NCBI GenBank assembly: GCA_950295325.1
Contig: OX485804.1
Location: 32,924,001 to 32,988,000 of the forward strand
DNA: 64,000 bases
Direction of reading: 5' to 3'
From: Polytrichum commune
Taxonomy: Eukaryota; Streptophyta; Polytrichopsida; Polytrichales; Polytrichaceae
Shown here: positions 31,701-63,026 of the stretch, piece by piece
Layout of the letters: every line of letters begins with the position of its first letter
How positions within the stretch are numbered: the stretch's first letter is position 1
Program-made: the position numbers and the translations under genes
The notes under the pieces: generated by a model
Database searches by the model: none
What the model saw: only the letters and a program-made list of their open reading frames with translations
What the model was told of the DNA's origin: nothing

Positions 31701-33026
31701 CTTCGATTTCTCCTCGCATTTATAACACTCAAAGTCCCCACACTAGCAAAAAACTATGCCTAAAAAAAACTGCAGCCATAATCAGATGCGGTTATTTTTG
31801 GCATAGTTTATTACTAGTGCTAGGATGCTCATTGACTAGGTCTTTGGACATGCTTGTGTTTTTTTGATTGTTCTCAACGGCTTTGAAGTCGAAGGTGGTG
31901 TTGCTAGTCACTTGGGTCTCCAACACTGACTCCACAGTGATGCTTGTATCGCCTACATCCGTGAAGACAAATTCTTCATAGAAGCTAGCACCCACTGCAT
32001 CCATTATCAAAAAAATTATTAAGGACAAAAGCACGAAATGCAAAACCCTAAGCAACAGTAGATCACCATGGCCCCTGGTAGCTCATAGCGACGAGCACAA
32101 GAGCGTTGGGAGTAACCATTGCTATACCAACTATCCACCAACCCATAATCAACAAAAATTATGTAACAAGCTATTTGTGCACAGCAAACCCTAGCAAGAA
32201 ATGCTAGCGAACAGCCTAACGATGATAACAAAAACACCTAGAAAACCCCAAATGACCATGATACTCTGATCAATTTTATAAGTAACCCTATACAACAACC
32301 ATATGTTGCAAATTGATGATCTACTGCATTTGAGGTAGGTGAACCTACACAAATTCCCAAGTCAAATTTTACAAACCGAAAAAGCATAGCCATCTTGTGT
32401 TTAGGGGGATGCTAGTTGTCCAGTTTGTCGAACTTCATATGTAAGGAATCGCTTCCATCAGTGTCCAAGAGTTGAATTGCATGGTTCATGTGTGCATGAT
32501 CCCAAAATAGATTCCACAAGCCATGAATCTTGAGAGTTCATATTCAAACTTTCCATTGATTTGTGCATAAATACTGTCAAGCATTTGGTAACAAATTTAA
32601 TTACTTCAATACTTGCCATAATATCCTAGAAAGACGACCACACGTTACTTATTTTCAAAATTAGCACTCGCAGATTTGTGATAAACATTAGCTTTTCTCA
32701 TCAGGGAATTTGTGTTCCAGCAAAATTTGGCTTATTAAAAAGTAACACAAACGTGACCATGCTAATACAAATCCTTTTTGACAACCTTTAGCACATTGAG
32801 CGCGCGGAAAAAATAGCATAAGCCATACAAGATTGACAATACAGTATTGGCAGAGGTAGTCTGAAAAATCAACACAGAATATATACACAAGGACACTATT
32901 GCTGTGTACAATGGTCCCCATTGCAGCTTGATGAAATTACAAGCGTGTCTGTATAAAAAAATTCTCTCTGAAACGACAAATTCTACTTCCCGCACAGACC
33001 AGAAAAACCAGATATTCTGAACTAAA
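31701..33026. other. Non-coding, including fibrillarin 3' flank
   Basis: From about 32810 to 33026 the sequence is shared with the 3' flank of the second fibrillarin gene ('acaatggtccccattgcagc', 'acaagcgtgtctgtataaaa'), so it belongs to the 3' UTR and the duplicated block. The remainder has only short frames without motifs. Confidence 0.6.
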
Positions 33027-35089
33027 TCAAGCCTTGGTTTTCTTTGGAGCCCGGTAGCTACCAACAACACAAGCGTGATCACGTTCAAAAGGCTCCAATG
33101 TAACTTGCTCAGCAGGCTTAAACTGTTCTTTCTGCAACTTCTTCACCTCGGCGGCAAACACAGCTTCTGCTGGTACTGTTGAATCGATACAATTTGCCTG
33201 TACACAGCACACCAAGTTTAGGTACCGCATTAAATGCCTCCTCAGAAGCTCTCCCTAGACTCCTAACCAACATTTACAATGAGCTTATTATGTACAAGGA
33301 AATACATCCAGAGCCGTCTGAGAACGTAAAGGAATGAAAACAATACCTTGATGGAAATAACGAAGTGACCACCGTTCTTCAAGAAACTGTGAGCGTTCAG
33401 AGCAACAATACGAGCCTGCAAACACCAATCGTCAAAAATAGTTCTCACATTCCGTCAAAATACATGGGTGCCGCATATATCACATCAACTACACCCTTCA
33501 TCCAATATTCAGTTACCACCACAAGTTTGAAGCGTCAGAATTAGGACTTTTCTTCATTCCGTAGTTGGTAGGGGAATCCATAATTCTCTTCATTCGCTTA
33601 ATCACACCAACTATGACATCAAAACACTCTACACATTGTTTTCTATTCAATGTCCACCACAACACCTTCAAAACACGACCCACAACTTCGATATAGAAAG
33701 ACACTGCAACATACCCTTGCATCAAATATAAGCGTCAGAATTTGGACTTTTCTTCATACCGTAGTTGGTAGGGGAATCCATAATTTCTCATCATCTGCTT
33801 CACAAAACCAACACTCCAAACCACCTCTACAAATAGCTTCGCATATTTCAAACTTGCCATAACAACCACTTGTCCTCGGGACCAAATTGATACAAGGTCA
33901 AAATGCAATACCTGATCGGGTTGAGCAACATCAGCAAATATAACATCCACCATACCAACAAGCATTCGGTACTTCATTGGATGCCTAGCATCTTCGATGA
34001 TGGGGATCACGTTTGTACGCTTCTTAGCCATGTTCACTAGATCACGCCCACTCCTATGCGAAAACTCCACTGCGTACACTATTCCAGTCTGCATTCACAT
34101 GCCAATTTTAGCATCATCCCAACACCGCACCTACAAGCCCTCATTATCAAAACTAGCATAACCTTCAAACAAACGACTTTCCGTCATGCCCGTACTTCAA
34201 GGGATCCAAACTTCTCATCATCTGCCCCAACATATTCAAAAACTCCTTCCAACAAAAACTTACCGGTCCAACAATATCTGATACGTGAGACACGGTTGTT
34301 CCCGATGCGGCTCCAAGGTACAGCACATGAGCTCCAGGTTTCTGCCAAATTTCAAAACAGAATCATCCAACTGTGTACAAAAAATCCAATTCCACACACC
34401 ATGCAACAACGATGGCTCATCTCAAACAAATTCTTTCACACTACGCTGAACGTGTGAGAAGAGAGTGATAAACACTTACAATCCAGATGTTGTCCACACC
34501 TCCCAAAATAGCTGCCGCAAGCTTTGACCTAAAAGGATTCCACACCCTGTATTCCGTCTTCGTTCCATCCTCGTTCTGCAAACACAACCATTTTATCACC
34601 AAATTCACGTACTCGCCAACTGCATCACTTTACAAATACCACCAAATATCTATCAAAACGTCTCGCGGTATCGCTTCGATACAAAACAGCATTGCCCACA
34701 TTTTCGAAACTACGATACTGTGCGCCAACCAAGATACTTACATCGACGCTGATTCTCTTCTCTCCATATACGCTCTCTCCGGGCACCATGTTCTTCGTTA
34801 CCAGCGCATCTTCCTTCGCCTTGGCTACGAACACACCCTCGTGTCTGTGCTGCTCGATGATCACCTTGGCTCCTCCCTTCATGCCCCCGCCTCGACCTCC
34901 GCCTCTCCCTCCTCCACGCCCGCCGCCGCCGCCCCTTCCACGGCCTCTGTCACCACCGCGGCCCCCTCCACGCCCACCGCCGAAACCACCTCGGCTGCCT
35001 CCACGGCCGCCTCCGAAACCTCCCCGGTCTCCTCCGAAGCCTCCACGGCCTCCTCCTCGGCCACCACCTCTAGTCAATGGAGGCCTCAT
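33027..35089 (-). CDS. FIB: Fibrillarin, rRNA 2'-O-methyltransferase (copy 1)
   Basis: Exons on the minus strand: 35089-34742, 34575-34480, 34341-34264, 34088-33912, 33415-33347 and 33197-33027. All junctions are GT-AG and all fall between codons, giving 312 residues, the usual length. Fibrillarin is the nucleolar catalytic subunit of box C/D snoRNPs. Residues 1-70 are a Gly/Arg-rich (GAR) domain starting [13 protein letters not shown]. The AdoMet fold follows, with [55 protein letters not shown] and [14 protein letters not shown]. The C-terminus is [20 protein letters not shown] chose the MRPP start because fibrillarins begin at the GAR domain; an upstream in-frame Met at 35197 would add 36 atypical residues. 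Two telo-boxes lie upstream. Intron 4 carries snoRNA-like units. Confidence 0.96.
33530..33599 (-). ncRNA. Candidate box C/D snoRNA, fibrillarin-1 intron 4, unit A
   Basis: On the minus strand a 5-bp terminal stem AAGCG/CGCTT encloses a C-box-like ATGAAGA (33587-33593, one mismatch to RUGAUGA), a C'-like ATGAAGA and a D box CTGA (33535-33538). The length is about 70 nt, in the host-gene sense. The core is about 90% identical to unit B while flanks are more diverged. Arabidopsis fibrillarin genes are known to host a C/D snoRNA in an intron. I could not name an rRNA target. Confidence 0.45.
33730..33800 (-). ncRNA. Candidate box C/D snoRNA, fibrillarin-1 intron 4, unit B
   Basis: The C box is a perfect ATGATGA (33788-33794) and the D box CTGA (33735-33738), bracketed by an AAGC/GCTT terminal stem. 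An internal ATGAAGA could be the C' box, and no clear D' box is seen. The putative D-box guide is AAAGTCCAAATT. It starts 200 bases from unit A and is identical to unit 3 of the second fibrillarin gene (46422-46492). Confidence 0.55.
34171..34228 (-). ncRNA. Possible diverged snoRNA relative in fibrillarin-1 intron 3
   Basis: The minus strand reads GCAGATGATGAGAA, identical to the C-box region of unit B, followed by loosely similar blocks (TTTGGATCCC, GTACGGGCATGA, GGAAAGTC). No good CTGA D box or terminal stem is present. It is probably a decayed copy. The same sequence lies in intron 3 of the second gene (46863-46920). Confidence 0.25.
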
Positions 35090-45520: not shown

Positions 45521-47781
45521 TTAGGCCTTGGTTTTCTTAGGCGCCCGATAGCTACCAACAACACAAGCGTGATCACGTTCAAAAGGCTCCAATGTAACTT
45601 GCTCAGCAGGCTTAAACTGTTCTTTCTGCAACTTCTTCACCTCGGCGGCAAACACAGCTTCTGCTGGTACTGTTGAATCGATACAATTTGCCTGTACACA
45701 GCACACCAAGTTTAGGTACCGCATTAAATGCCTCCTCAGAAGCTCTCCCTAGACTCCTACACAACATTTACAATGAGCTTATTATGTACAAGGAAATACA
45801 TCCAGAGCCGTCTGAGAACGTAAAGGAATGAAAACAATACCTTGATGGAAATAACGAAGTGACCACCGTTCTTCAAGAAACTGTGAGCGTTCAGAGCAAC
45901 AATACGAGCCTGCAAACACCAATCGTCAAAATTGTTCTCACATTCCGTCAAAATACATGGGTGCCGCATATATCACATCAACTACACCCTTCATCCAATA
46001 TTCAGTTACCACCACAAGTTTGAAGCGTCAGAATTAGGACTTTTCTTCATACCGTAGTTGGTAGGGGAATCCATAATTCTCTTCATTCGCTTAATCACAC
46101 CAACTATGACATCAAAAAACTGTATACATTGTTTTGCATTCAATGTACACCACAACACCTTGCAAACACGACCCGGACCTTCAATGGATAAAAGCAGTAC
46201 ACCACACGTTGCATAAAATGTAGACGTCAGAATTAGGACTTTTCTTCATTCCGTAGTTGGTAGGGGAATCCATAATTCTCTTCATTCGCTTAATCACACC
46301 AACTATAACATCAAAACAATTTACACATTGCTTTCTATTCAATGTCCACCACAACACCTTCAAAACACGACCCACAACTTCGATATAGAAAGACACTGCA
46401 ACACACCCTTGCATCAAATATAAGCGTCAGAATTTGGACTTTTCTTCATACCGTAGTTGGTAGGGGAATCCATAATTTCTCATCATCTGCTTCACAAAAC
46501 CAACACTCCAAACCACCTCTACAAATAGCTTCGCATATTTCAAACTTGCCATAACAACCACTTGTCCTCGGGACCAAATTGATACAAGGTCAAAATGCAA
46601 TACCTGATCGGGTTGAGCAACATCAGCAAATATAACATCCACCATACCAACAAGCATTCGGTACTTCATTGGATGCCTAGCATCTTCGATGATGGGGATC
46701 ACGTTTGTACGCTTCTTAGCCATGTTCACTAGATCACGCCCACTCCTATGCGAAAACTCCACTGCGTACACTATTCCAGTCTGCATTCACATGCCAATTT
46801 TAGCATCATCCCAACACCGCACCTACAAGCCCTCATTATCAAAACTAGCATAACCTTCAAACAAACGACTTTCCGTCATGCCCGTACTTCAAGGGATCCA
46901 AACTTCTCATCATCTGCCCCAACATATTCAAAAACTCCTTCCAACAAAAACTTACCGGTCCAACAATATCTGATACGTGAGACACGGTTGTTCCCGATGC
47001 GGCTCCAAGGTACAGCACATGAGCTCCAGGTTTCTGCCAAATTTCAAAACAGAATCATCCAACTGTGTACAAAAAATCCAATTCCACACACCATGCAACA
47101 ACGATGGCTCATCTCAAACAAATTCTTTCACACTACGCTGAACGTGTGAGAAGAGAGTGATAAACACTTACAATCCAGATGTTGTCCACACCTCCCAAAA
47201 TAGCTGCCGCAAGCTTTGACCTAAAAGGATTCCACACCCTGTATTCCGTCTTCGTTCCATCCTCGTTCTGCAAACACAACCATTTTATCACCAAATTCAC
47301 GTACTCGCCAACTGCATCACTTTACAAATACCACCAAATATCTATCAAAACGTCTCGCGGTATCGCTTCGATACAAAACAGCATTGCCCACATTTTCGAA
47401 ACTACGATACTGTGCGCCAACCAAGATACTTACATCGACGCTGATCCTCTTCTCTCCATATACGCTCTCTCCGGGCACCATATTCTTCGTTACCAGCGCA
47501 TCTTCCTTCGCCTTGGCTACGAACACACCCTCGTGTCTGTGCTGCTCGATGATCACCTTGGCTCCTCCCTTCATGCCCCCGCCTCGGCCTCCGCCTCTCC
47601 CTCCTCCGCGCCCACCGCCGCCGCCCCTTCCACGGCCTCTGTCACCACCGCGGCCCCCTCCACGCCCACCGCCGAAACCACCTCGGCTGCCTCCACGGCC
47701 GCCTCCGAAACCTCCCCGGTCTCCTCCGAAGCCTCCACGGCCTCCTCCTCGGCCACCCCCTCTAGTCAATGGAGGCCTCAT
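45521..47781 (-). CDS. FIB: Fibrillarin, rRNA 2'-O-methyltransferase (copy 2)
   Basis: Exons on the minus strand: 47781-47434, 47267-47172, 47033-46956, 46780-46604, 45909-45841 and 45691-45521. Every exon has the same length as in copy 1, and the 312-residue protein appears identical to it, including the GAR domain and the YRAPKKTKA end. Introns 1, 2, 3 and 5 have the same lengths as in copy 1. Intron 4 is 694 bases instead of 496, because it carries one extra ~200-bp unit. Upstream introns are nearly base-identical, so the duplication is recent or homogenised by gene conversion. The stop is TAA here and TGA in copy 1, and 3' flanks diverge just past the stop before similarity resumes. Both copies look intact. 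Confidence 0.96.
46023..46092 (-). ncRNA. Candidate box C/D snoRNA, fibrillarin-2 intron 4, unit 1
   Basis: It differs from unit A of copy 1 at one position in the core. It has the AAGCG/CGCTT stem, C-like ATGAAGA and D box CTGA (46028-46031). Confidence 0.45.
46222..46291 (-). ncRNA. Candidate box C/D snoRNA, fibrillarin-2 intron 4, unit 2 (stem degraded)
   Basis: Same core as unit 1 with CTGA kept, but the 3' stem side reads CGTCT instead of CGCTT, so the terminal stem is weakened. It starts about 199 bases from unit 1. It may be non-functional. Confidence 0.3.
46422..46492 (-). ncRNA. Candidate box C/D snoRNA, fibrillarin-2 intron 4, unit 3
   Basis: Identical to unit B of copy 1, with the perfect C box ATGATGA, D box CTGA and AAGC/GCTT stem. 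It is the best-formed unit and the one nearest exon 4. Confidence 0.55.
46863..46920 (-). ncRNA. Possible diverged snoRNA relative in fibrillarin-2 intron 3
   Basis: Same sequence as 34171-34228 in copy 1. The C-box region GCAGATGATGAGAA is present, but no good D box is seen. Confidence 0.25.
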
Positions 47782-60585: not shown

Positions 60586-63026
60586 CTAGAGAGCAACATC
60601 AGTTGGGTCATCCTTGGGAACCATGCGTTTCCAGAACCAATGCTTGCGCCAAATAAAGCCAACCTCCTCAATAGGCACATTCTTTGTCTCTGGAAGGAGG
60701 AGGTAGACGAAAGAGGTCATGACGATCTCCCAGCCTGCAAAAAACAAGAACGAACCATACTGGAAATGGCATAAGATGCTGAGAAAGGCTTGTGCTATAA
60801 CAAATGTCATTGCGAGATTCGTGGACACAACAATTGCTTGCCCTGCGGAGCGAATTTCCATGGGAAAAATTTCACTGGGAACCAACCATCCTAGTGGTCC
60901 CCAAGACCATGCAAACGCAGAAACAAACGTCGAGACGAAAAATAGGACGAGGCTTCCCAGTCCCTTGGAAAGGACCTTCGTGCCTCCGAATTTTGTGCCC
61001 AATATGACTGCAATTGCAATCTGCCAATTTCAATCACATTGTAAGTAACCACGAGTGAACCAACGTTGCAAAACCTCCATTATCAGTACTTAAATCTAGG
61101 AATGCATTGTCTGCAATTTTAAGCATTTATCAATCGACAATTGAAGATTTTTGGGGTTCTCATTGTTTAAGTTACATAATATGATCCATTTGTGGTTTGA
61201 GATTAGACTAAGAATTGAAGTTTAAAGCGTTCACAAACCTGAGATAGTATCATTTGAACACCACCTTGTATGAGCAATGCCCTTCGGCCTAGTTTATCGA
61301 CAGCCACAATCGACACTATGGTTGAACCAATGTTCACAGCTCCAATAATCGCGGCTGAATATAAAGTTGTATTGGCCCCAAAGCCAATGGTGCTGAATAA
61401 AACAGGTGCATAAAACATAATAACATTGATCCCCGTTAGTTGTTGTAGAAAAGGGATAGCAAAAGAGAATATGAGTTGTGGTCGATACTTTTTTTCCAGC
61501 AAGTTTCGCCACGGATGTTTAACCTGTAGTATATCCAAAAGCAAATGTTAGTGCCATATTTTCATGTGCAATTTCCTTATCCTTTTCTACGAAGCTGGTT
61601 TGTGAACCCAAAAAACACATCAATCGAATCTGTACCTGGTTTGCAAGTTCACTAGCCTCCACAATATCCTCGAATTCAACATCCACATTTTCCACCCCTC
61701 TAATCTTCTGCAAAATCACTCTGCCTTCTGCTCGGTGTCCTCTTTCGATTAGACTGTTAGGGGTGTCGGGAAGGAAAAACGATCCAAGAATGAGCATAAT
61801 TGCAGGAACCATTGCTATTCCCAATGAATATCGCCATCCATGCACATGTGAGGACGTCAAGTAGTTGATTATATTTGCCACCAAGATTCCCAAGGTGATA
61901 GCAAATTGAAACAGAATGTTCAATGCTCCACGATATTGTGCAGGAGCCATTTCGGAAAGGTACAATGGCACGGCCTGGTACCACAAACACGAGATGAACA
62001 ATCAAAAAAATTGATCTAGTTTCAACATAAACTTGATCACAGAATTCACAATAAAACAATGAAACAATAAATAAAATTTATACGATTTTCCTAGAAGACG
62101 GAGATCAATTTAGTACAGTCTGGTACCTGAGAAGCAAAGCCGACTCCAACACCCAATAAAATTCTCCCAATAACAAGCATCGCCAAATCCTGACTAGCTC
62201 CATTAAGAACCGCACCAACAAAAAAACTGATGCCCCCCATGAACATGGTCCACTTGCGTCCATAAAGGCGTGTGATGTAAGATGCAGGGAAAGCGGCGCA
62301 CAAACCGGCAATATACAAAGACGATGTGAACAATTGCAGCAATTGATTGTCGTACTTACAATAGTCGGTATTAATTGCCATATGCTTCTTTTCGTAGACG
62401 GTAGGAAAGAATTTAAGAAGAAACTCATCCATACTCGTAACACCGCCTATTTCACATATACATAAGATAAGATTAATGAGAGTAGCATAAAATCAAACAA
62501 GTTGGATGAATATATCAACAACATCAATAAGCAATCTATGATTACTACACTAAATATGATATTTAGTGTTACTTACTATTTGGAATTATGCAACGCTATA
62601 ATTGTTTAATGTACATCTCACTTTTTACCAACAAAGGTTGAATTGGGTGTTTGGACATTACAGAACATTAACGTCTTTACTTGATAGAAAATTACATCAA
62701 TAAAAAATAATATATAAGAGTGTGGAACTCCGAATAGTATGTGACACTAGATTTCATTTTCTATGTAGTTTGTAATTAGTTGAAATGATACAAATTTTCA
62801 GTTTTTCTTTTTCTGTTTAAATGCATCTTGGATAGAGCAGAGCAACAATTTTTATAGCATAAACACAACTTTTAGCATTACCTGATATCCCGATGTCATA
62901 TCCGAAAATGAGGCCACCAAATGCCCCCACAATGCATGTTAAGAAGACATATCCTGTAAAATGACCCTCATACTCGGTCCTCTTTGGGTTGAGTGTGTGA
63001 ACATGGTGAACTCCTCCCTTCCCCAT
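60586..63026 (-). CDS. STP: STP-type monosaccharide/H+ symporter
   Basis: Exons on the minus strand: 63026-62882, 62446-62127, 61974-61636, 61523-61239 and 61020-60586. All are GT-AG with consistent phase, giving 507 residues, normal for plant sugar transport proteins. The protein is a plasma-membrane MFS carrier importing hexoses with protons. Motifs in order: [18 protein letters not shown] (Asp44 is the expected proton site), [95 protein letters not shown] and [10 protein letters not shown] (usual Gly replaced by Asn). Cys78 (DYCKYD) and Cys447 (LCHFQYG) match the lid-domain disulfide pair known in Arabidopsis STP10. I chose the Met in [10 protein letters not shown], a typical STP start. 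No break is seen. Confidence 0.95.

Follow-up and report, generated by a model that had tools for sequence, protein, structure and literature searches.

Does the fourth intron of a fibrillarin gene in Polytrichum commune encode box C/D guide RNAs, such that one gene supplies both the enzyme and a guide, and if it does, to which family do these RNAs belong and how did their copies come about? We addressed this question in the whole 64-kb stretch of DNA analysed, referred to here as "the window", and in the remainder of the genome assembly. The product of the gene concerned (gene A) matches PF01269 with 369 bits (E 7.3e-111), and the coordinates proposed for the snoRNA-like units in the initial annotation proved to be exactly those of intron 4 of this minus-strand gene. 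Two cores, A1 and A2, lie in the intron with their starts 200 nt apart. Read in the sense of the host gene, each consists of AAGC, box C, the antisense element TGGATTCCCCT, a box C' that is ATGAAGA in both, a second antisense element, CTGA and GCTT. The boxes (ATGATGA or ATGAAGA, and CTGA) and the AAGC/GCTT ends that had been read there are all present at A1 and A2. Together with the Rfam assignment given below, they bear out the view that the intron of a fibrillarin gene is occupied by box C/D snoRNA genes, and hence that enzyme and guide come from a single gene. Coordinates are collected in Table 1.

Table 1. Positions, within the window, of the fibrillarin genes, their host introns and the U60f-like copies
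Feature	Position	Strand	Details
Fibrillarin gene A, coding part	33027..35089	minus	6 exons, 312 aa; translation with GT/AG introns
Gene A exons	35089-34742, 34575-34480, 34341-34264, 34088-33912, 33415-33347, 33197-33027	minus	
Gene A intron 4	33911..33416	minus	496 nt, GT..AG; host of two snoRNA copies
snoRNA copy A1 (U60f / snoR60-like)	33731..33800	minus	RF00339 32.0 bits, E 0.00025
A1 parts	C 33794-33788; D'-side antisense 33780-33770; C' 33757-33751; D 33738-33735	minus	C ATGATGA; D CTGA; ends AAGC/GCTT
snoRNA copy A2	33531..33599	minus	RF00339 31.1 bits, E 0.00044
A2 parts	C 33593-33587; D'-side antisense 33580-33570; C' 33557-33551; D 33538-33535	minus	C ATGAAGA; D CTGA
Decayed U60f-like copy, gene A intron 3	34155..34233	minus	shuffle test; model R1
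Fibrillarin gene B	45521..47781	minus	tandem duplicate of A; 312-aa protein identical to that of A
Gene B intron 4	46603-45910	minus	694 nt; three snoRNA copies
snoRNA copy B1	46423..46492	minus	RF00339 32 bits; same as A1 over 81 nt
snoRNA copy B2	46223..46291	minus	RF00339 24.7 bits; 3' end of terminal stem GCTT -> GTCT
snoRNA copy B3	46024..46092	minus	RF00339 30.7 bits
Decayed U60f-like copy, gene B intron 3	46847..46925	minus	same as in A

Gene B lies 12.7 kb from gene A. In the genome searched (408 Mb in 64 contigs), ten exon matches to PF01269 were listed, five per gene, and all of them fall in genes A and B; tandem duplication has already been reported for plant fibrillarin genes (PMC7608942, part of the text). 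A genome-wide DNA search with A1 listed five copies, every one of them within intron 4: gene A accounts for two and gene B for three. This search omitted the decayed copies in intron 3 described below, so other diverged copies may exist. A genome search with RF00339 at E up to 10 gave nine matches, namely A1, B1, one member of a snoRNA gene cluster (L001) and six further loci; it scored 61 of 63204 candidates and is incomplete, as A2, B2 and B3 are not listed. The six loci (L004-L009, 22.2-25.5 bits) were treated as chance matches: when rescanned with Rfam, L004 and L005 gave a weak snoR60 match alone, and L006-L009 gave nothing at E up to 0.5.

The five copies differ in how closely their boxes follow the consensus. 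Box C is the consensus ATGATGA in A1 and B1 and ATGAAGA, one base off RUGAUGA, in A2, B2 and B3, so that the diagnostic pair of RUGAUGA and CUGA occurs as such in A1 and B1 and approximately in the other three. The complementary ends AAGC/GCTT are found in four of the five, the exception being B2. The D'-side antisense GGATTCCCCT occurs five times in the window, against 0.06 occurrences expected, and the D-side guide differs by one base at most among all five copies. The D' box is degenerate, with CCAA at the aligned place, and it is degenerate in the Rfam snoR60 consensus as well. Single-strand folding of the cores was unremarkable (z -0.22 to -1.67), in line with what C/D RNAs, with no more than a short terminal stem, would be expected to show.

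Conservation is concentrated in the cores. The initial annotation had described repeat units of 200 bp with a best-conserved central part; a core of about 71 nt stands up to alignment (65 of 71 columns identical between A1 and A2), and the longer unit does not. In the flanks of this pair, 82 of 186 columns are identical (Fisher p 3e-13 for the core against both flanks together), 61/118 upstream and 21/68 downstream, and since some downstream columns align non-repeat stretches, which lowers flank identity, the fairer comparison is with the upstream columns. The contrast between core and flank was tested in four older pairs out of ten and held in all four, the other three being B1-B2 (63/71 versus 104/177), B2-B3 (67/70 versus 113/181, with 92/115 upstream) and A1-B3 (66/71 versus 72/185). 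Pairs that do not display the full contrast are A2-B2 (core 68/70, upstream 109/115), A2-B3 (core 69/70, upstream 93/115, downstream 58/59) and A1-B1 (core 71/71, upstream 113/113, downstream 58/59), as would be expected if these are recent copies.

A further copy, in a state of decay, was found in intron 3, which is 175 nt long and identical between genes A and B. Its alignment to the core scores 63.5, a value reached by none of 5000 dinucleotide shuffles, whereas introns 1, 2 and 5 (stretches placed to within two bases) score 19.0-22.0, values reached by 335-783 of 1000 shuffles. A model built from the five copies (R1) finds the intron-3 copy in both genes (26.4 bits, E 0.00018); its eight matches comprise the five copies, the two intron-3 relics and one weak match at 61555-61635 (E 1.8). 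The intron-3 copy retains an intact box C and has neither a CTGA box D nor matching ends. It is identical to A1 at 53 of 74 positions, against 17/30 and 25/60 in the flanks, as counted in a gapped alignment without a baseline.

The uneven state of the boxes raises the possibility that A1 and B1 alone are functional, and that the tandem duplicates A2, B2 and B3 are in decay. The substitution of ATGAAGA for RUGAUGA in all three, the loss of part of the terminal pairing in B2 and the presence of a dead copy in intron 3 speak for such a process. We nonetheless think it somewhat doubtful: between B2 and B3 the core is better conserved than the sequence upstream, which points to selection on both; the core of A2 is nearly identical to those of B2 and B3, in part a matter of recent common descent; and the change to ATGAAGA may be one that the RNA tolerates.

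The history of the array can be partly reconstructed from the differences among units. The introns 4 of genes A and B are 98.7% identical across their first 379 nt, yet between B2 and B3 the upstream regions match at no more than 92 of 115 columns; the three-unit state is thus probably older than the split between A and B, unless later conversion homogenised the two genes. At the sites telling B2 from B3 between 33711 and 33558, A2 agrees with B2 at 20 and with B3 at 4 (33711, 33639, 33627 and 33615), and from 33532 on it agrees with B3 at every such site. A2 is therefore B2-like in its front part and B3-like towards its end, from which it appears that units 2 and 3 of gene A recombined and that one unit was probably lost in this way. 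The junction would fall within 33625-33532, most simply inside the snoRNA, from 33558 to 33532, a placement that hangs on the single base 33558 and is blurred by the four B3-like sites, so that a junction slightly farther upstream is possible.

To which family do the copies belong? The initial annotation held that the core did not look like the U60 guide and that the guide might be a different one. Rfam, searched with 1.6 kb, did not bear this view out: the best family for both A1 and A2 is snoR60 (RF00339), aligned over all 72 model positions. The likeness extends to boxes, antisense and ends, and the D'-side antisense GGATTCCCCT is also carried by the snoR60 consensus in the Rfam alignment. 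The difference lies in the scores, which at 24.7-32.0 bits are below the gathering score of 40 bits, a curator's inclusion cut-off and not a property of the RNA; a scan of the whole window at gathering thresholds gave no matches. The guides considered in the initial annotation, AAAGTCCAAATT and AAAGTCCTAATT, are the D-side ones and not the antisense of snoR60. If these were the main guides, the copies would belong to some other C/D family, as might be argued from box D being a perfect CTGA whereas D' is degenerate, and from the near-constancy of the D-side guide across the five copies. With snoR60 as the best Rfam family for A1 and A2, and with no D-side target found in the single short LSU stretch tried (94 and 111 of 500 shuffles paired as well), we regard a different family as very unlikely. 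Scores below the gathering score might also suggest a chance resemblance within an ordinary intron, but the full-length snoR60 match, the excess of the antisense over expectation, the conservation of the cores amid diverged flanks and the fact that the same host gene carries U60 in Arabidopsis (PMC8053127, part of the text) make that explanation exceedingly improbable.

The target was placed by way of LSU conservation, because the 25S stretch of the species itself was not found: searches of the genome with LSU pieces gave five short fragment matches or nothing (conserved rDNA may be missing from the sequence searched, so this absence carries no weight), and an exact LSU pattern had no matches in viral_contigs. 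The LSU stretch with G2125 that was used for pairing stands in for the species' own. The antisense GGATTCCCCT of the window forms a duplex of -20.0 kcal/mol with this stand-in stretch, and none of 500 letter shuffles did as well. For the sequence that follows the antisense, a possible pairing with 18S was judged by eye and dropped.

The position of the guide is read from the D' box. By alignment to snoR60, the guide of the window would point to G2125: counting upstream from CCAA, the aligned D', the fifth base is a C that would face G2125. Because the antisense contains four consecutive Cs, a D' box shifted to ACCA, one base earlier, or to CAAC or AACU, one and two bases later, also has C as its fifth base, so that the sequence alone allows four neighboring Gs. 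In Arabidopsis 25S rRNA, U60 targets G2125 and SnoR12 directs A2127, 2 nt away (PMC8053127, Table 1). The Rfam consensus guides of snoR60 and snoR12 have GGAUUCCC in common, and in our own reading the fifth bases from D' (CAGG in snoR60, UUGA in snoR12) fall two apart in the consensus pair, in agreement with the published sites G2125 and A2127. The window copies likewise share the antisense core GGATTCCC with plant SnoR12 (RF00204), and differ from it, again in our reading, by a guide register two bases apart. An identity with SnoR12 was rejected, since A1 and A2 score only 17.7 and 19.1 bits against 39 for that family, and their aligned register points to G2125.

Taken together, we consider it very probable that the intron encodes the box C/D snoRNA U60f in two copies guiding to the equivalent of G2125, and that copies arose and were lost by recombination between units. 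We infer expression, processing and methylation in this species as follows. Once the fibrillarin pre-mRNA is transcribed, the U60f copies would be cut and trimmed out of intron 4, with the C/D proteins on the cores shielding them while the remaining intron is removed. An intron with two or three snoRNAs would have to be cut at least once between units; a title cited within PMC5122169 reports splicing-independent processing of plant snoRNAs. The copies would form particles with fibrillarin, NOP56, NOP58 and 15.5K. In these, GGAUUCCCCU, the D'-side antisense, would guide 2'-O-methylation to the 25S G that corresponds to G2125 of Arabidopsis, where the expected 25S counterpart is AGGGGAAUCC. Recombination between units would have moved the copy number up and down, so that gene B now has three, gene A has two, and intron 3 holds a dead one.

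A U60f in a fibrillarin intron is of a known kind, and what is added here is the presence of several copies per intron, a recombinant copy and a decayed copy next door. Barneche et al. (2000) reportedly described one U60f per fibrillarin gene of Arabidopsis, located in intron 5, and conservation of the snoRNA in other plant fibrillarin genes. In both moss genes, and for all five listed copies, the host is intron 4. Unlike Arabidopsis U60f, the moss RNAs occur as two and three copies in one intron, with a decayed copy in the preceding intron, and box C is one base off in three of the five. U60.1F and U60.2F sit in an intron of Arabidopsis FIB1 and FIB2, respectively (PMC8053127, part of the text). 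They resemble the moss copies in being box C/D snoRNAs in a fibrillarin intron, and the published target stretch around Gm2125 fits the antisense found here (PMC8053127, PMC8351944, parts of the texts). In the fib1-1 mutant, U60.1F is not expressed and methylation of G2125 drops; in fib2-1, U60.2F is still expressed and methylation of G2125 is unaltered (PMC8053127, part of the text). Several U60 copies in one fibrillarin intron are not reported in the literature searched (passages of PMC8053127, PMC8351944, PMC7608942, PMC11028025, PMC5122169, PMC7464842 and PMC12218528).

The new part is mainly the number and history of the copies, the pairing of this snoRNA with fibrillarin being known already from Arabidopsis. 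In a comparison with PDB chains, the PsaD protein of the genome scores highest against 9vfj, a 698-aa chain (485.5 bits, no single stretch passing by itself); next come 8htu, 7ksq and 6l35 (315.5, 301.8 and 301.3 bits), chains from the moss Physcomitrium, and then 9lut (288.7 bits) and lower scores, which suggests a moss. Provided that the moss copies were not acquired separately, the placement of U60 within a fibrillarin intron would predate the parting of mosses and flowering plants; an enzyme gene would then have long kept its tie to a guide of its own. The copies also illustrate how intronic snoRNAs multiply, recombine and decay. A more speculative idea, to which we give little credence, is that the introns of the fibrillarin genes serve to control dosage or provide feedback, in that U60f copies, some with a weak box C, and the box-C-only relic of intron 3 would compete for snoRNP proteins on the nascent pre-mRNA, and assembly would alter splicing and hence fibrillarin output. 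A published study reportedly concerns a snoRNA carried in the pre-mRNA of a gene for a snoRNP protein, the same arrangement as here; that snoRNA reportedly regulates its host in cis, and nothing in the present data shows regulation.

The genome searches also yielded observations at other loci. The cluster (L001, G000:C5:47838307-47841383) consists of box C/D snoRNA genes that all lie on the same strand, of which snoZ107_R87 (54.9 bits) and snoZ223 (47.5 bits) score above gathering; below it are snoR30 (54.0 bits, gathering 60) and a weak snoR11 (31.2 bits, E 0.066). The member at 1501-1577 gives 33.3 bits for snoR60, slightly above the copies in genes A and B, and 26.5 bits for snoR12. It carries GGATTCCCT followed by CCGA, which in our own reading places its register at the equivalent of A2127, like that of Arabidopsis SnoR12. 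Another locus (L010, G000:C2:38380305-38380468) contains short LSU rRNA fragments within other DNA, with 95% identity over 65 query bases and 85% over the neighboring 55. In the window at 31740-31830 and in L010 at 980-1325, we noted by eye the sequence ACTATGCC and a downstream inverted partner, GGCATAGT, near ACTAGTG; these stretches are perhaps a dispersed inverted-repeat element.
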